Of a DNA stretch of 64,000 nucleotides, positions 230-34,512 are shown piece after piece; the stretch's first letter is position 1, and every line of letters begins with the position of its first letter. This DNA comes from Myxococcus hansupus (GTDB lineage Bacteria; Myxococcota; Myxococcia; Myxococcales; Myxococcaceae), in contig NZ_CP012109.1 of the NCBI RefSeq assembly GCF_000280925.3, forward strand, positions 1,798,001 through 1,862,000. The letters are read 5' to 3'. A program made the translations under genes and the position numbers. Under the pieces are notes generated by a model that was not told where the DNA came from, did no database searches, and saw only the letters and a list, made by a program, of their open reading frames with translations.

Positions 230-359
230 GGGCGACCTCTGAAGGCGGACCTGCGGGGTTGGCGGCTCGCTAGCAGAGAATCCGGCTTTTTTCCAATGAA
301 GGGGTCGCACTCCGTCATACGTCTGTGGTACCGTGAAAGCACCATTTTGCGGGGACACT

Positions 360-1295
360 GTGAACTCCAGGCCCTTCACCCTGCTGGTAGTGGATGACTC
401 GCAGTCGACGTTGCCACGCTTGGCCCGAGCCCTGGGCCCGGAGGACTTTGCCCTCCGAATCGCTGCCCACGGCCCGGAGGTGCCGAGACTGGCGCAGGAG
501 GTTTCCTTGGTCGTCCTGTGTCCGGGCGAGGATGCGGCCGGCACCTTGGCGCTGCTGGAGCGGCTGACCCCGGGGGACGGTGCGTTGGGCCCACCGGTGG
601 TGCTCCTCACGCCCCCCGAGCACCGGCCACTTTGGGTGGAGGCACTTCGGCGTGGTGCTGAGGTCGTCTTTGACCCATGGGCGCCGGATGAACTGCTCTC
701 CCGGGTGCATCGCGCCCTGGCTGTCCATGCCCGAATGGAGGCCCTCGCCACCCAGGTGGGCGAGCTCCAGCGGCTGTCCGCCACGGACGGCCTCACCGGG
801 GTGCACAACCACCGGCACTTCCAGGAGCGGCTGCGGGAGGAGTTCCGCCGCGCCCAGCGGTATGACGACGCCCTGTCGCTCATCCTGCTGGACTTGGATT
901 TCTTCAAGGAAATCAACGACAAGTACGGCCACTCCGCCGGCGACGGGGTGCTGCGCGCGGTAGCGGGCGCCCTGACGCGCGGCGTGCGCGAGACGGACCT
1001 GGTGGCCCGTTATGGCGGGGAGGAGTTCGCGTTGCTGCTGCCCCGCACGCACTTCACCGGGGCCCTCACCGTGGCCGAGCGCGTCCGCCGGGAGCTGCGC
1101 GCCCTCACGTTGGACGTGGACGCGGGCCTGCAAGTCACCGCATCTCTTGGGGTTTCCAGCTTCCCCCACCGCACGGTGCTCAGCCCGGAGCAACTGCTCC
1201 TGACGGCGGACGAGGCCCTCTATCAGGCCAAACGGGACGGCAGGGACCGCATCTGCCTACATCCCCAGCTCCCCATGGGCCCGTCGGGCACCTAG
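360..1295 (+). CDS. Diguanylate cyclase with a degenerate receiver domain
   Basis: This 311-residue cytoplasmic protein has an N-terminal receiver-like domain (about 1-125) and a C-terminal GGDEF domain (about 140-305). The GGDEF domain looks active: DGLTGVHNHRHF, LDLDFFKEIND and the signature GGEEF at about 219-223 are present. An RETD inhibitory site sits exactly five residues before the signature, so product feedback by c-di-GMP is expected. The receiver keeps the acidic pair (VVDD), but the phospho-acceptor position is Cys (VVLCPG) and the usual Lys before Pro is Asp (FDPW). It therefore probably cannot be phosphorylated. I chose GTG at 360 because GGGGA lies just upstream; an in-frame GTG at 333 lacks a ribosome site. 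A clear terminator follows, so the gene looks monocistronic. Confidence 0.85.
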   Translation: MNSRPFTLLVVDDSQSTLPRLARALGPEDFALRIAAHGPEVPRLAQEVSLVVLCPGEDAAGTLALLERLTPGDGALGPPVVLLTPPEHRPLWVEALRRGAEVVFDPWAPDELLSRVHRALAVHARMEALATQVGELQRLSATDGLTGVHNHRHFQERLREEFRRAQRYDDALSLILLDLDFFKEINDKYGHSAGDGVLRAVAGALTRGVRETDLVARYGGEEFALLLPRTHFTGALTVAERVRRELRALTLDVDAGLQVTASLGVSSFPHRTVLSPEQLLLTADEALYQAKRDGRDRICLHPQLPMGPSGT

Positions 1296-23228: not shown

Positions 23229-23936
23229 TCAGTAGAGCGTCGCGGGCCCCGGAATCGCCCCGTCCAACCGGATGCGCCGCCGCTGAAGTCCCTGCGCGCG
23301 GCCGGTGCGCTCCATGACGTGGGTGCGCTCCAGCTCCGCCCACAGCAGGGTCCCCAGCACCTGCCAGTGCGAGGGCGCGTCCACCGTCAGCTCCAGCAGG
23401 CTCACCGTCCACGCGGGCACGTCCGCGTCGAGCGTGGACGGGGGCAGCACGCGCCGGACGTCCTGGCCGAGCCGCTCGCGCGTGGGCGCGGCGAGGTGCT
23501 CGCTCACCGTGAGCTGCGAGGTGGGCACCAACAGCGCGGCGAAGGCGTCCGCGTGGATGCGCACCACCTTGGCGCCGGGGTACTGCGCGGACAGGGACTC
23601 CACCGTGGCGCGCAGCACCGCGTCGCCGGTGGGGAACCCGAAGCGGGCGTTGACGTTGATCATCCCCTGCACGTCGGCGATGACGGCGCCCACGCGCCAC
23701 CCGTCATGGTGGGCGTGCGTGGACAAGTCGTACTCCTCCTTGAGGAGGCTCCCCTGGGTGAGGGCGGGCACCTGGAAGGCGCCCGTCTTCGCGTCCGGCT
23801 GCCCCCGGCGGGCCTGCTCCGCCTGGACGAGCACCTCCACGGCGGCCTGCACCGGGGCCTGGGGGCTGCGGGAGAGCACCCAGGGGTTCAGGGCGATGAG
23901 GGCGGTGGCGGTGTCGTCATCGAGCGCGTAGGGCAT
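23229..23936 (-). CDS. Degenerate GGDEF-like domain protein
   Basis: This 235-residue soluble protein has a C-terminal half resembling a GGDEF fold: VGAVIADVQGMINVNARFG, then TGDAVLRATVESLSAQYPG, then VRIHADAFAALLVP in the position of the catalytic hairpin. The signature GG(D/E)EF is replaced by HADAF, and no RxxD inhibitory site precedes it, so neither cyclase activity nor product binding is expected. The N-terminal part (1-80) is not recognised. I prefer ATG 23936; GTG 23963 is an alternative. The gene lies 42 bases downstream of rlmM on the same strand and may be co-transcribed with it. Confidence 0.65.
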   Translation of the reverse strand: MPYALDDDTATALIALNPWVLSRSPQAPVQAAVEVLVQAEQARRGQPDAKTGAFQVPALTQGSLLKEEYDLSTHAHHDGWRVGAVIADVQGMINVNARFGFPTGDAVLRATVESLSAQYPGAKVVRIHADAFAALLVPTSQLTVSEHLAAPTRERLGQDVRRVLPPSTLDADVPAWTVSLLELTVDAPSHWQVLGTLLWAELERTHVMERTGRAQGLQRRRIRLDGAIPGPATLY

Positions 23937-23978
23937 GGCGACCCTTGTGTAGCGCGTCCTCACCTTCCGCGCAGGGGC

Positions 23979-28247: not shown

Positions 28248-28549
28248 TGCCGTTTCCGGGTGGACGGTCCACGCCGGGACGGCGGCAGGGCAGGGGAGCG
28301 GCACGCGCCGTTCTCGCCCGGACGGGCGGTGCGGCGAAGCTTGCGCGGCCCGGAGGGGTTCTGTTAAGGACCCCCCGCCCCGAGGTATGGGGACCGGGGG
28401 TGGTTCACCCTGGGTAGCACCCACTACACACACGCTCGTGCCGGTCGCCGGTGCCTCCGTGGGCAGGTTCCTCCTCGAAGGAGGGCGCGCCCCCGGACGT
28501 TTCGGCCGGAAGGTTTGCTCGGGCGTGGCGGAATAACCGGAGAGACAAC
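28248..28549 (+). promoter_or_regulatory. Promoter and untranslated leader of rpsB
   Basis: This GC-rich gene-free stretch probably holds the rpsB promoter and a long leader. TTGCGC at 28341-28346 and TAAGGA at 28365-28370 are 18 bases apart; the second resembles the TAAGGG -10 box I recall from the myxobacterial vegA promoter. Transcription would then start near 28377, leaving a leader of about 170 bases that contains further GC-rich inverted repeats, for example around CCTCCTCGAAGGAGG. Ribosomal protein leaders often bind their own product, here S2; that is inference. Confidence 0.4.
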
Positions 28550-29524
28550 ATGGAAACGCAGGACACGCAGTCGCAGCAGCAGGCGATGGCCGCCGCCGGT
28601 GGCATCACGATGAGGCAGCTCCTGGAGGCCGGTGTTCACTTCGGTCACCAGACGAAGCGCTGGAACCCGAAGATGAAGCCGTACATCTTCGGCGCCCGCA
28701 ACGGCATCTACATCATCGACCTGCAGAAGACGGTCGTGATGGCCCGCTCGGCGTTCCGCTTCGTGGCGGACATCACCGCGCGCGGTGGCTCGGTGCTCTT
28801 CGTGGGCACCAAGAAGCAGGCGCAGGACGTCATCCGCGAGGAGGCCTCGCGCGCCGGTCAGTTCTTCGTCACCAGCCGCTGGCTGGGTGGCACGCTGACC
28901 AACTTCAAGACCATCAAGCAGGGCATCGACCGGCTGAAGGGCCTGGAGAAGATGGCCGAGGACGGCACTTTCGACCGCCTGCCCAAGAAGGAAGTCGCCC
29001 TGCTCGAGCGTGAGCGCGAGAAGCTGGAGAAGAACCTGGGCGGCGTGAAGGAGATGTCGAAGCTGCCCCGTTGCGTCTTCGTCATCGACCCGAAGAAGGA
29101 GCACATCGCCATCCACGAGGCCAGCCGCCTGGGCATCCCGGTCATCGGCCTGGTGGACACCAACTGCGATCCGGACGGCATCGACTTCGTCATCCCCGGC
29201 AACGACGACGCCATCCGCTCCATCAAGCTGTTCACCTCCAAGATCGCCGAGGCCTGCATCGAGGGCGCCGCGCGTTACCGCGCCTCGGGCGCCGCCGAGC
29301 GCGACGAGCAGGAGGAGCGCGAGGGCCGTGATGACCGCGGTGATCGCCGTGACGACCGCCGTGGCCCGCGCCGTGGCGACCGCCGCGATGACCGTCGTGA
29401 CCGGGGTGGTGACCGTGGCGGCGAGCGCCGTGGCCCCCTCGTCGAGATGAAGGGCGCCGCGGCCCCCGTCGCGTCCGAGCCGGCCGCCGAGGCCGCTCCC
29501 GAGGGTGAGGCGGCGGCCGAGTAG
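28550..29524 (+). CDS. rpsB: 30S ribosomal protein S2 with a long charged C-terminal tail
   Basis: S2 binds the head-body junction of the small ribosomal subunit. The core (about 18-245) has [49 protein letters not shown] and the [13 protein letters not shown] segment. The protein is 324 residues, about 80 longer than the E. coli form. The extra C-terminal part is first a run of Asp/Arg/Gly repeats ([11 protein letters not shown] type) and then an Ala/Glu-rich end. The tail is probably disordered and could bind RNA. ATG 28550 follows CGGAGAGAC. A hairpin separates it from tsf. Confidence 0.97.
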
Positions 29525-29551
29525 CCGTCCCTTCCTCACGTCAGTGCTGAA

Positions 29552-29604
29552 GCGGCCGGGTGGCGCCAGTACGGGCCTGCTACCCGGCCGCCTCTGTTTC
29601 CTTG
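29552..29604 (+). terminator. Intergenic attenuator hairpin between rpsB and tsf
   Basis: A perfect 10-base stem, GCGGCCGGGT with ACCCGGCCGC, spans a 20-base loop and is followed by CTCTGTTTCCTT. It lies between the rpsB stop and the tsf start and would reduce read-through. E. coli also has a terminator-like element between these two genes. Confidence 0.65.
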
Positions 29605-29681
29605 GTACGCAGTTTCCCCTTGAACTTGGATTGCTCCGCCCGGCGCGCTGCGCCCTGGAGAGGCGGAGGCAGGAGACGACA

Positions 29682-30335
29682 ATGGCCGAAGTGAGCGCCC
29701 AGATGGTGAAGGAACTCCGCGAGCGGACCAACGCGGGCATGATGGACTGCAAGAAGGCGCTCGCCGAGTCGGGCGGCGACTTCGCCAAGGCCGAGGAGTG
29801 GCTGCGCAAGAAGGGCATCGCCAAGTCCGCGGGCAAGGAAGGCCGCGTTGCCGCCGAAGGCGTCGTCGGCACCTACGTCCATGGCGGCCGCATCGGCGTC
29901 ATCGTCGAGGTGAACTGCGAGACGGACTTCGTCGCCCGCAACCCCGACTTCCAGGAACTGGTGAAGGACGTGGCCATGCAGATCGCCGCGGCCGGCCCCA
30001 AGTTCGTCCGTCGTGAGGAGGTCCCCACGGACAACCTGGACAAGGAGAAGGACATCCAGCGGGAGATCCTGAAGCAGCAGGGCAAGCCCGAGGCGATGCT
30101 GGAGAAGATCCTCGTCGGGAAGATGGAGAAGTACTACGAGGGCGTCTGCCTCGTGGACCAGCTCTGGGTGAAGGACGACAAGAAGAAGGTCGGCGAGATG
30201 ATCTCCGAGCGCGCCGCCAAGATTGGCGAGAAGGTCTCCGTGCGCCGCTTCGTCCGCTACGAGGTCGGTGAGGGCATCGAGAAGAAGAAGGACGACCTCG
30301 CCGCCGAAGTCGCCAAGACGCTGGGCCAGGCGTAA
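29682..30335 (+). CDS. tsf: Translation elongation factor Ts
   Basis: EF-Ts recharges EF-Tu by exchanging GDP for GTP. The 217-residue protein has the UBA-like N-terminal domain (MVKELRERTNAGMMDCKKAL), the TDFV motif in EVNCETDFVARN, and a shortened C-terminal region ending in VRRFVRYEVGEGIEKK. It is shorter than the 283-residue E. coli protein because the second dimerisation subdomain is reduced, as in several other phyla. ATG 29682 has GGAGGCAGGAG upstream. The order rpsB-tsf-pyrH-frr is the widely conserved one. Confidence 0.97.
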   Translation: MAEVSAQMVKELRERTNAGMMDCKKALAESGGDFAKAEEWLRKKGIAKSAGKEGRVAAEGVVGTYVHGGRIGVIVEVNCETDFVARNPDFQELVKDVAMQIAAAGPKFVRREEVPTDNLDKEKDIQREILKQQGKPEAMLEKILVGKMEKYYEGVCLVDQLWVKDDKKKVGEMISERAAKIGEKVSVRRFVRYEVGEGIEKKKDDLAAEVAKTLGQA

Positions 30336-30359
30336 GGCCCCCGCGGTCCCCTGGGGGCC
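30336..30359 (+). terminator. Hairpin just after tsf
   Basis: GGCCCCC and GGGGGCC form a 7-base stem directly after the tsf stop. No T-run follows; it may modulate expression of pyrH, whose start is about 190 bases further on. Confidence 0.4.
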
Positions 30360-30551
30360 GCGCGCCTGAATGCAGGCAGGACCAGGGCCGCGCGCACCGG
30401 AAATTCCCCACCACGGGGTGTCCGGGCGACGCGGCCCTTCCATTTGGGTCTGGATGACCCCTCCCCTGGCGACCGCCAGCGGACGATGTGACATGTGTGG
30501 GCCGACTCCAGCGTTGATCCCTCGCGGAGCGGGGGATAGAAGCGGTGGCGC

Positions 30552-31304
30552 ATGTCCTCCGACACGACGAAGCCGCTCCCGTATAAGCGCGTTCTCCTCA
30601 AGCTCTCGGGCGAGGCCCTGATGGGGGAGGGGAAGTACGGCATCCACCCGCCCACCCTGATGGGAATCGCCGACGAGGTCATCGAGGTGGCCCAGGCGGG
30701 CGTGGAAGTGGCCCTGGTGATTGGCGGAGGCAACATCTTCCGGGGCGTCGCGGGCGCCACCGAGGGCATGGACCGGGCCAGCGCCGACTACATGGGCATG
30801 CTGGCCACCTGCATCAACTGCATGGCCATGCAGGATGCCCTGGAGAAGAAGGGCCTCCACACGCGCGTGCTGTCCGCCATCAAGATGGAGCAGATCGCCG
30901 AGCCCTACATCCGCCGGCGCGCCGTGCGCCACCTGGAGAAGGGCCGCGTGGTGATTTTCGCGGCGGGCACCGGCAACCCGTACTTCACCACGGACACCGC
31001 CGCCTCCCTGCGCGCCATGGAAATCAACGCGCAGGTCATCCTGAAGGCGACCAAGGTGGACGGCGTGTACAACGCGGACCCGAAGAAGGACACCACCGCG
31101 CGGCGTTATCGGTCGCTGACGTACATGGACGTGTTGAAGCAGAATCTCAACGTCATGGACTCCACGGCCATCTCGCTGTGCATGGACAACAAGCTTCCCA
31201 TCATCGTGTTCGACCTGACGCTGCGGGGAAACATCCGCCGCGCCGTGCTGGCGGACGGGGACATTGGTACGTTGGTGGGTGGCAGCGAGACGGTCTGGGC
31301 CTGA
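30552..31304 (+). CDS. pyrH: Uridylate (UMP) kinase
   Basis: PyrH makes UDP from UMP and ATP, is hexameric and is usually activated by GTP and inhibited by UTP. The 250-residue product has the amino-acid-kinase fold motifs [45 protein letters not shown] and [15 protein letters not shown], ending with GNIRRAV. All match the bacterial PyrH family. It is 37 bases ahead of frr and 216 bases behind tsf. The upstream gap may hold its own promoter; nothing there is a convincing match. Confidence 0.98.
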
Positions 31305-31341
31305 GTCCGGACCACCGGCAAGCACTCAAGGAGAGAAAGCA

Positions 31342-31899
31342 ATGAGTGGAGACGTCGTCGCCGAATTGAAGGGCCGCATCGACAAGTCGCTCGAGGGCCT
31401 GCGCACGGACCTGACGAAGGTCCGCACGGGCCGCGCCAGCACCGCCATCCTGGATGGCGTGCGCGTGGACTACTACGGCACGCCGACGCCGCTGTCCGGC
31501 GTGGCCAGCGTCAATGCGCCCGAGCCCCGGCTCATCACCATCAAGCCGTGGGAGAAGAGCGTCCTCAAGGAGATCGAGAAGGCGCTGCGCGAGGCGAACC
31601 TCGGCATCAACCCGATGAACGACGGCGAGATGATTCGCCTGCCCTTCCCGCCGCTCACCGAGGAGCGCCGCAAGGACATCGCCAAGCAGGTGAAGAACAA
31701 GGGCGAGGAGTTCAAGGTCGCCATCCGCAACCTCCGCCGCGACGCGAACGAGGCGCTGAAGACGCAGCTCAAGGACAAGAAGATCACGGAGGACGACCAC
31801 AAGCGCATCACGGAGACGGTGCAGAAGCAGACCGACGCCGGCATCGCGCAGGTGGATGACATCGTGAAGAAGAAGGAGAAGGAGGTCATGGAGGTTTGA
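31342..31899 (+). CDS. frr: Ribosome recycling factor
   Basis: RRF, with EF-G, splits post-termination ribosomes. The 185-residue product has the family order: LRTDLTKVRTGRAS, YYGTPTPLSGVASVNAPEPR, WEKSVLKEIEKAL, PMNDGEMIRLPFPPLTEERRKD, and a C-terminal helix (VDDIVKKKEKEVMEV). AAGGAGAG precedes the ATG. The stop codon shares a base with the start of the next gene (TGATG), so a receiver/GGDEF-like protein is translated with it. Confidence 0.98.
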   Translation: MSGDVVAELKGRIDKSLEGLRTDLTKVRTGRASTAILDGVRVDYYGTPTPLSGVASVNAPEPRLITIKPWEKSVLKEIEKALREANLGINPMNDGEMIRLPFPPLTEERRKDIAKQVKNKGEEFKVAIRNLRRDANEALKTQLKDKKITEDDHKRITETVQKQTDAGIAQVDDIVKKKEKEVMEV

Positions 31900-33698
31900 T
31901 GCCCTCCATCGTCCTCGCCGAGCCCTCCGCGCCGGTGGCGGGCGTCTTGCGCCGCTACCTGGAGTCCGCCGGCCATGCAGTGTCCTGGGTGGGCAGCGTC
32001 GATGAGGCGCTGCGCACCGTGCGGGAGCAGTCGCCCGCCATCCTGCTGGCGTCCGCAATGGGCGCCCTGGATGGCGAGGCGCTGTGCCGGAGTGTGCGCG
32101 CCGAAGGCCTGGCCACTCCGGTGTTGCTGTTGTACTCGCCCGATGAGGAGCAGGCTGACACGCGCGCCGCCGAGGTGGGCGCGGACGGATGCCTGGTCGG
32201 GCCGTTGAAGCGCGCCACGGTGCTGACGTGCGTGTCCTTGCTGGTGCAGCGCGAGGAGGCCCGTCGGCGGGTGGCCACGCTGAGCGGGCTGCCGCCGCCC
32301 TTGCCCGTGAGGCCGCCGCCACCGCCGCCGCTCGATGACGACGCGGATGGGCTGGCGCTGTCCGGAGACATGGGGCGGATGCCGCCCCCTCCGCCGCTCG
32401 ATGATGCCGCGGGGACGCGGGATTCGGCGGAGGGTTCGACGCCGGGTGATATCGCTGGAGCGCGGGCCTCTGCTGCGTCGCCGCTCGGTGACGAGGGCAC
32501 GGCGTCGGAGGGAGCGCGGGCTTCGTCCGTTCCTCCGCCGCTCCCTGGCGCGACTGTGGCATCCGAGGCGCTTGCTCCGGAGCTGGACGCGGAGCCGATT
32601 ACTTCACCGTCCTCCGAGGTCGACAGCGACGCTCGGGATGCGGTCATGGTGTCTCCCCAGGCTGCGGACGCGCCGGGCGCCGCTGACGATGATGGCCTCC
32701 CGCTGCTGCACGCGGAGCCGGAGCCAGACGCGCCGTCCGTGGTCACGGGCGTCATCGTCGAAGAGGAGGCCGCCGAGCCTTCCTCGGTCGAGAATGCGGC
32801 GCCGTTGGCCGAGGCCCATGTCGCTGGCGATGCCCGATCCGCCGACGCGCCTCACGCCGCCGCCGCCAGTGCAGCCGCTTCGGACGCCACGGGTGCCAGT
32901 GCCTCCGGTCCCGAGGCGTTGCCCGCCACCGCGTCGCCCTCGGTGTTGGAGTCCCCGGGCACCAGCGGCGTCGGGCCCACGCAGCCCGCCACCGTGTCGT
33001 CCTCGGTGCTGGAGTCCCCGGGCACCAGCGGCTCCTCCGCGGCGCAATCCGCCGTGCGCGCGCCAGACGCGGGCCCGGCGGCACCGGCTCCTGTCGCGGG
33101 CTCGCGGATGTCGGGCTCCTTCCCCGCGCTGGCGTCCACGCCGGTGCCGGACGGGCGCCGCATCTCCCGCTCGGACCTGGCGTCCGTGGGCTCCCACCCG
33201 GACTTCGAGTTCCTCAAGCGCCTGATGCTGATGGAAGTGAAGCGCAGCCGCCGCTACCGCTACCCCATCGCGGTGTTGCTGGTGGACATCGACCGCTTCG
33301 CCGAGAAGGCGGCGTCCCTGGCCCCCGCGGCGCGGAAGCTCGCGCTGGCCGAGGCCATGGGCCTGCTGGTGTCCGGAGTCCGCGACATCGACGTGGCCGT
33401 GCCCTTCGCGGACAGCCGCTTCGTCGTCTTCCTCCCGCACACGCCGCGTTCCGGCGCGCTGGTGGTGGGCCAGCGGCTTCGCGAGCTCATCAAGTCCCTG
33501 CAGGCCTTCGAGGGCGCCAGCGCCTCCGTGGGCGTCGCCGTCTCCGAGCCCCCTCCGGGCCGTGGGCCCGTGGCGGGCGCCCTGGCGCAGGTCAGCTTCG
33601 GGAGTCTCTTGAAGGAGGCCGGAGAGGCCCTGCGCCGCGCGCAGGCCGCCGGTGGTGACTGGGTGGAAGCCGCGAGCGGAAGGACTCAGCCGGGGTAG
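31899..33698 (+). CDS. Pseudo-receiver plus degenerate GGDEF protein, possible c-di-GMP receptor
   Basis: This 599-residue soluble protein has three parts. An N-terminal receiver-like domain (1-120) has lost the phospho-acceptor (Ala51 in ILLASAMGALDG) and the conserved Lys (Gly in LVGPL). Next comes a linker of about 300 residues rich in Pro, Ala, Ser and acidic residues, with repeated PPPPPLDD and VLESPGTSG segments. A C-terminal GGDEF-fold domain (about 435-585) starts FEFLKRLMLMEVKRSRRYRYPIAVLLVDIDRF. Its signature is ADSRF at 504-508 instead of GG(D/E)EF, so it should not make c-di-GMP. The inhibitory RxxD site is intact as RDID at 495-498, exactly five residues before the signature. A c-di-GMP-binding role is therefore plausible. 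Its ATG overlaps the frr stop. Confidence 0.8.
   Translation: MPSIVLAEPSAPVAGVLRRYLESAGHAVSWVGSVDEALRTVREQSPAILLASAMGALDGEALCRSVRAEGLATPVLLLYSPDEEQADTRAAEVGADGCLVGPLKRATVLTCVSLLVQREEARRRVATLSGLPPPLPVRPPPPPPLDDDADGLALSGDMGRMPPPPPLDDAAGTRDSAEGSTPGDIAGARASAASPLGDEGTASEGARASSVPPPLPGATVASEALAPELDAEPITSPSSEVDSDARDAVMVSPQAADAPGAADDDGLPLLHAEPEPDAPSVVTGVIVEEEAAEPSSVENAAPLAEAHVAGDARSADAPHAAAASAAASDATGASASGPEALPATASPSVLESPGTSGVGPTQPATVSSSVLESPGTSGSSAAQSAVRAPDAGPAAPAPVAGSRMSGSFPALASTPVPDGRRISRSDLASVGSHPDFEFLKRLMLMEVKRSRRYRYPIAVLLVDIDRFAEKAASLAPAARKLALAEAMGLLVSGVRDIDVAVPFADSRFVVFLPHTPRSGALVVGQRLRELIKSLQAFEGASASVGVAVSEPPPGRGPVAGALAQVSFGSLLKEAGEALRRAQAAGGDWVEAASGRTQPG
32921..33035 (+). repeat. In-frame 63-base tandem duplication in the linker
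   Basis: A 63-base unit (21 codons) beginning GCCCGCCACCG at 32921 recurs at 32984, encoding two copies of the segment containing SVLESPGTSG. The copies differ at a few bases. The second copy decays after about 50 bases. Confidence 0.7.
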
Positions 33699-34015
33699 AC
33701 GAGGTCCACACCGCTGATGTCGCGAACCACGCCCGCGACGAACGACATCAGCTCCAGGCCCCGGCCCTTGTCGTCCTTCCAGGTGCCGGTGGCCGCATCG
33801 TAGTCGAAGTGGATGCCCTGGCCCCGGCCCGCCACCCAGATCTGCCGCACGGCACGCTGGGTGTTGATGATGCACTTCTCCCGCGAAGCGGCGGTGAGCG
33901 TCACCATGTCGCCGGTGCTGTCGGCTTCGAGCGTGTCGGGGTCGAGGTCATCCGCGGCGGCGAGGATGCGCTTGAACGCCGCGGAGGTGAGCTGGTTGTA
34001 GCGAGCTTCGTCCAT
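33686..34015 (-). CDS. cyaY: Frataxin-like iron protein CyaY
   Basis: This 109-residue protein matches bacterial frataxin, which binds iron and tunes Fe-S cluster assembly by the cysteine desulfurase complex. Family marks are the acidic first helix (FKRILAAADDLDPDTLEAD), the strand ending MVTL, KCIINTQRAVRQIWVAG with the conserved QxW, and GIHFDYDAATGTW. The ATG shares one base with the stop of the upstream sixA-like gene (TGATG). Its 3' end overlaps the convergent receiver/GGDEF-like gene by 13 bases. No isc or suf genes are visible nearby. Confidence 0.85.
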   Translation of the reverse strand: MDEARYNQLTSAAFKRILAAADDLDPDTLEADSTGDMVTLTAASREKCIINTQRAVRQIWVAGRGQGIHFDYDAATGTWKDDKGRGLELMSFVAGVVRDISGVDLVYPG

Positions 34016-34512
34016 CACTGGATGACTTCGAGCACCTGCTGGCCGGGAGCCGCGTAGAACAGGAACTTGAACGCCGGGGTGGCTTCACCCTCCACGCGCT
34101 CCAGCCCGATGACGGTGCCCGGGTTGACCGGCTTGGGAAAGGACTGCATGCCGAGCAGGTGCGCCGCCAGGGCGCCCATGGACGGCTGGTGCCCCACGAG
34201 GACGAGGTTCTCGTCCGCGAACTCGTTGAGCACCGGCTCCACCGCGCCCACGGGCATGTCGGGCAGCAGGCAGCGGTGCACCTTGAGCGGGCCTTCGAAC
34301 TTGGCGGCGATGGAGAGAAGCTGCGACGTCTGCACCGTGCGCACCAGCGGGCTGGTCAGGATGCGCCCCACCGGGCCCATGCGCGCGGCCAGCGCTCCGA
34401 AGTGCTGCGCGGTGCCAGTCCGGGCCTTCGCGGTGAGGGCGCGTGCCTCGTCACCGAGACCCTCTGGGATCTCCGCGTCCGCATCGCCGTGCCTAACCAG
34501 GAAAAGCCTCAA
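34015..34512 (-). CDS. sixA: Phosphohistidine phosphatase SixA-like
   Basis: SixA is a small histidine-phosphatase-fold enzyme that removes phosphate from phosphohistidine, first shown on the Hpt domain of ArcB and more recently linked to the nitrogen phosphotransferase system. The 165-residue product has the RHG triad (FLVRHGDAD), ILTSPLVRTVQTSQLL and VLVGHQPSMGALAAHLL with the second catalytic His. The start is TTG at 34512, with GGAGG upstream; no ATG lies close by. It is coupled to cyaY by a one-base overlap. Confidence 0.88.
   Translation of the reverse strand: MRLFLVRHGDADAEIPEGLGDEARALTAKARTGTAQHFGALAARMGPVGRILTSPLVRTVQTSQLLSIAAKFEGPLKVHRCLLPDMPVGAVEPVLNEFADENLVLVGHQPSMGALAAHLLGMQSFPKPVNPGTVIGLERVEGEATPAFKFLFYAAPGQQVLEVIQ

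Follow-up and report, generated by a model that had tools for sequence, protein, structure and literature searches.

The 599-aa protein encoded immediately downstream of frr, the ribosome recycling factor gene, in Myxococcus hansupus is probably an atypical response regulator that serves as a c-di-GMP receptor and works through the I-site of a degenerate GGDEF domain, in the manner of PopA and SgmT, as judged from sequence comparison. This reading rests on the fold family of the domain, the loss of its catalytic residues, the invariance of its I-site and purifying selection. The original prediction for this locus had described a degenerate-GGDEF c-di-GMP effector tied to translation; its first half stood up well, with RxxD in 97 of 97 homologues and an A-site that is never restored, and of its second half only a conserved neighbourhood is left.

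The gene lies in a window of 64,000 nucleotides (the whole stretch of DNA that was analysed), taken from a 9.49 Mb genome on a single contig. The features on which the analysis draws are as follows.

28544-30335, forward strand: rpsB and tsf (PF00318, PF00889)
30552-31304, forward strand: pyrH, amino acid kinase family, UMP kinase (PF00696)
31342-31899, forward strand: frr, ribosome recycling factor (PF01765, E 2.2e-67)
31899-33698, forward strand: gene for the 599-aa degenerate receiver - linker - degenerate GGDEF protein (ATG start; probable MXAN5340 orthologue)
31899-32264, forward strand: pseudo-receiver, residues 1-122 (PF00072, 4.8e-9; Ala51 for the phospho-Asp)
32265-33143, forward strand: Ala/Pro/Ser-rich linker, residues 123-415 (composition, dN/dS; length varies among species)
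33171-33668, forward strand: degenerate GGDEF domain, residues 425-590 (PF00990; AlphaFold2 model; dN/dS)
33381-33392, forward strand: I-site RxxD, R495-D-I-D498 (RxxD in 97 of 97 homologues)
33408-33422, forward strand: degenerate A-site ADSRF (504-508) for GG(D/E)EF (sequence, homologue alignment)
33474-33476, forward strand: Arg526, PleD R390 equivalent, second half of the I-site (Arg in every homologue checked)

The open reading frame 31899-33698 and every residue named by the original prediction proved correct on checking. The order of genes 5' of the receptor-like gene (rpsB, tsf, pyrH and frr) was likewise borne out by Pfam families, as was the proposed overlap; the frr stop codon TGA (31897-31899) and the ATG of the receptor-like gene have A31899 in common (TGATG) and hence overlap by one base. 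On the 3' side lie, in convergent orientation, a gene for a frataxin-like protein (CyaY) and a histidine-phosphatase gene. A scan for promoters and terminators across 30300-34100 found none, and such a scan says little at high GC.

With regard to the C-terminal domain, residues 445-585 match the GGDEF family PF00990 (E 7e-8), and the match to TIGR00254 scores 49.5 bits against a cut-off of 37.4. AlphaFold2 modeled this domain with a mean pLDDT of 84.5, and a Foldseek search with the model returned GGDEF domains as the best PDB matches, with structure matches including c-di-GMP-bound GcbC (5euh), PleD (2wb4) and DgcR (6zxm). Receptors of the PopA and SgmT kind combine such fold and homology with a degenerate A-site and the loss of catalytic residues, and both marks were found here. 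The GG(D/E)EF active site by which a diguanylate cyclase is recognized reads ADSRF, as had been claimed, and the loss goes further, as the equivalents of PleD K332, N335, D344, K442 and R446 (PleD numbering from general knowledge and PMC3509222) are also gone; among the homologues, 0 of 97 have a GG(D/E)EF A-site. Because the metal, GTP and GG(D/E)EF residues are gone, the GGDEF domain is predicted to make no c-di-GMP. Structures of PleD with both c-di-GMP and (p)ppGpp exist (PDB 9g85 and 9g86). Elsewhere in the window, at positions 23229-23963 (reverse strand), a 244-aa protein matches GGDEF weakly (23.9 bits, barely over the cut-off) and has lost both A-site and I-site.

A third mark of such receptors, RxxD at canonical spacing together with a second Arg, is present as well. 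RDID (495-498) stands at the canonical distance from ADSRF (504-508), confirming its claimed placement, and Arg526 follows R495 by 31 residues, the same spacing as between PleD R359 and R390. The 97 homologues (42 + 55 loci) were drawn from the class, some of them from another order; all carry RxxD, most of them as RDID, and the second I-site Arg was found in every one scored, i.e., in 96 by script and in L161 by reading. An orthologue check had been set beforehand, asking whether RxxD is lost freely and whether the loss of GGDEF is conserved; RxxD proved universal and no homologue has regained the A-site. One locus, L031 (BNCN01000001.1), is titled Comamonas sp. KCTC 72670 and has a domain 98% identical to this Myxococcus one, a title that looks mislabeled. 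An alignment of 23 sequences that share less than 85% identity has 17 invariant columns out of 137, and the R, the D and the Arg at R+31 are among them; no better than rank 84 is reached by the columns for K332, N335, D336, D344 and the first Asp or by the first three of the A-site. Of the metal- and GTP-binding columns, the second Asp of DxD is the exception in being invariant.

The main rival to a receptor is a structural or dimerization module that does not bind c-di-GMP, in which RxxD is kept for folding or protein contact. Such retention is conceivable because active GGDEF domains of the same genome carry RxxD as well (one reads RREQ), and the motif could thus be inherited and kept for structural reasons. 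Other GGDEF-type residues (E, RY, P, the second D of DxD, the P and T of LPHT, and GG) are as invariant as the I-site, and TmoK already provides an example of a GGDEF domain without c-di-GMP synthesis or binding (PMC4877007). We nevertheless consider a purely structural role unlikely, as the adjacent A-site drifts and the three I-site ligands do not. Retention is also not automatic: this genome encodes five other degenerate GGDEF domains, of which two still have RxxD plus the second Arg and three have lost the I-site. In favor of a receptor, the I-site triad is present in every homologue checked, across several families, and the Myxococcus cases fit the rule: SgmT, with a degenerate A-site and RHPD, binds c-di-GMP via its I-site, which localizes SgmT (PMC3509222), while TmoK does not bind, and its apparent counterpart in this genome (by length) reads AQDD.

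The N-terminal part matches Response_reg over residues 5-110 (E 4.8e-9). A phosphorylatable response regulator carries a phospho-acceptor Asp in its receiver; here that position holds Ala51, as had been noted, an Asp at position 51 occurs in 0 of 93 aligned homologues, and the Lys of the canonical K-P motif is replaced by Gly101. Protein length among frr-linked homologues ranges from approximately 300 to 645 aa, mostly from differences in the linker, and in the short-linker homologue L028 AlphaFold2 models receiver and GGDEF domain confidently (pLDDT 91) with their mutual arrangement undefined (pTM 0.54). The linker of the M. hansupus protein contains a near-duplicate, SPSVLESPGTSG / SSSVLESPGTSG, at window positions 32934-33041.

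Across five species pairs, dN/dS was 0.05-0.13 for the GGDEF domain, 0.13-0.26 for the receiver and 0.46-0.56 for the linker; purifying selection is strong on the GGDEF domain, in contrast to the linker. These values bear on the idea that the gene is a decaying, functionless relic of a receiver-GGDEF diguanylate cyclase, which would account for the dead catalytic and phospho-acceptor sites, for a reported deletion without phenotype and for the absence of the gene from part of one genus. Given the dN/dS values for both domains, a reading frame that has stayed open and an I-site kept in 97 homologues, some in another order, the protein is extremely unlikely to be a relic.

Among known systems, PopA of Caulobacter crescentus, a member of a different phylum, is likewise a response regulator whose GGDEF domain has a degenerate A-site and an intact I-site. 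PopA is a c-di-GMP receptor controlled through localization (as described in PMC3509222); unlike PopA, the 599-aa protein has one receiver, itself without the phospho-Asp, and a long variable linker. The GGDEF domain of M. xanthus SgmT shares the degenerate A-site, the intact RxxD and the second Arg, but SgmT is a GAF-histidine kinase-receiver-GGDEF hybrid with DigR as output regulator, whereas the 599-aa protein has no kinase or DNA-binding domain. M. xanthus ActA also joins an N-terminal receiver to a GGDEF domain with a degenerate A-site and an intact I-site (PMC3509222); it is, however, a separate gene, encoded upstream of actB, and its deletion is listed apart from that of MXAN5340 (PMC4877007).

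Ligand binding, oligomer change, partner and process are all parts of the model that we infer. c-di-GMP, probably as an intercalated dimer as in PleD, would contact R495 and D498 in one domain and R526 in a second one, and binding would change dimerization or docking of the 599-aa protein. The pseudo-receiver, which lacks the phospho-Asp, and the flexible linker may mediate protein interactions and tether the protein, by analogy with PopA or SgmT, and under the PopA/SgmT model binding at the I-site would govern where the protein sits.

By length and gene spacing, MXAN5340 is almost certainly the orthologue in M. xanthus. The orthologue in M. xanthus AM003 has 547 aa, as does MXAN5340 (PMC4877007), which has a shorter linker than the 599-aa window protein. 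An intact receiver-GGDEF protein lies 26 genes from the receptor-like gene in the window (an approximate count, with genes picked by a simple GC3 rule), and the spacing between MXAN5366 and MXAN5340 is also 26. At window positions 333-1295 (forward strand), a 320-aa GGDEF protein with intact GGEEF and RETD is, by these motifs, likely an active diguanylate cyclase and the probable counterpart of MXAN5366 (321 aa). MXAN2997 (646 aa) was rejected as the orthologue because the length of the AM003 protein equals that of MXAN5340.

In a full-text literature search for MXAN2997 and MXAN5340, the sole match was the strain table of PMC4877007. The MXAN5340 deletion in that study removes codons 50-542 (strain SA5525). 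Of the 24 mutants in the deletion panel, 20 showed no developmental effect, and motility was affected only by dmxA, sgmT and tmoK; because the four with developmental effects are sgmT, tmoK, dmxB and pmxA, MXAN5340 is among the 20 (PMC4877007). This absence of the orthologue deletion from the motility and development phenotypes counts against a receptor; a growth rate for the MXAN5340 mutant was not found in the text of PMC4877007. M. xanthus has 17 GGDEF proteins, and 11 of the 15 besides SgmT and ActA are predicted to have intact A-sites (PMC3509222). The main text of a c-di-GMP capture study in M. xanthus names only CdbA and CdbB (PMC7156744).

The proximity of the gene to frr was compared across genomes. 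Within the window's family, every locus showing both genes has the start codon -4 to +32 bases from the frr stop (a script took the candidate start closest to that stop, and small gaps outside the genus are approximate), with the identical one-base overlap in 27 of 27 genomes of the window's genus. In most other families with both genes on one contig, the gene follows frr on the same strand at a distance of approximately 2-6 kb (G037, G046, G068, G069, G083, G084 and G085), as it is in G145, which belongs to another order, and the association is therefore old. Co-location of the two genes is thus old and real, and direct coupling is the state of one family.

This association, together with the overlap or close spacing in the window's own family, is what would speak for a c-di-GMP receptor with a role in ribosome recycling or in setting the growth rate, and coupled to frr for that reason, as the original prediction had suggested. 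One-base stop/start overlaps are, however, common within bacterial operons. In the f5 and f10 loci that were examined, which represent two other families, frr and the homologue are separated by a gene for glutamine-dependent NAD synthetase on the opposite strand (L059 and L156 called by Pfam, L154 by reading the protein). A component of the translation machinery would be expected to co-occur and to be co-located with frr obligatorily, but the two genes lie on separate contigs in G038, G057, G077, G078 and G146, and in the sister genus g31 (Corallococcus, to go by the named loci L041 and L044) 9 of the 16 genomes lack a homologue and keep frr; the gene was also not detected in members of several small genera (g39-g42) that keep frr. 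As the nine g31 genomes demonstrate, frr does without the receptor-like gene. Finally, the MXAN5340 deletion is viable and has no reported motility or development defect (PMC4877007). It is thus very unlikely that the protein acts on ribosome recycling or growth rate, and just as improbable that synthesis of the receptor is coupled to Frr so that it signals to, or reads, the state of translation or growth, with frr proximity as the trace of this. Most likely, the overlap provides growth-phase co-expression from the pyrH-frr unit and not a role in ribosome recycling. Contrary to what had been claimed, the idea would also not be wholly new, because RimK of Pseudomonas is a precedent for control of ribosome function by c-di-GMP; a literature search for c-di-GMP and ribosome recycling factor found no paper on such a link, RimK being the sole ribosome-related precedent noticed.

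The nine gene-less g31 loci still have ATGAAGGTCTGA or ATGACGGTTTGA as the final codons of frr, and the purine-rich stretch before the stop is therefore largely frr coding sequence; as a sign of a dedicated ribosome-binding site it would be weak evidence. After frr, these loci (L164-L169 and L172-L174) have GC-rich sequence with an inverted repeat, which resembles a terminator stem a few tens of bases past frr. At three of the loci in which the gene is not directly next to frr, the neighbors (peptidase M16, glycosyltransferase and solute-binding protein) are not in common, and therefore no partner can be proposed.

Few c-di-GMP receptors have been verified in Myxococcus, i.e., SgmT, Nla24, some PilZ proteins and CdbA/B. 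The 599-aa protein adds a conserved and so far unstudied candidate receptor with known I-site residues as targets for mutation, and M. xanthus strain SA5525, in which the probable orthologue is deleted, has already been described.
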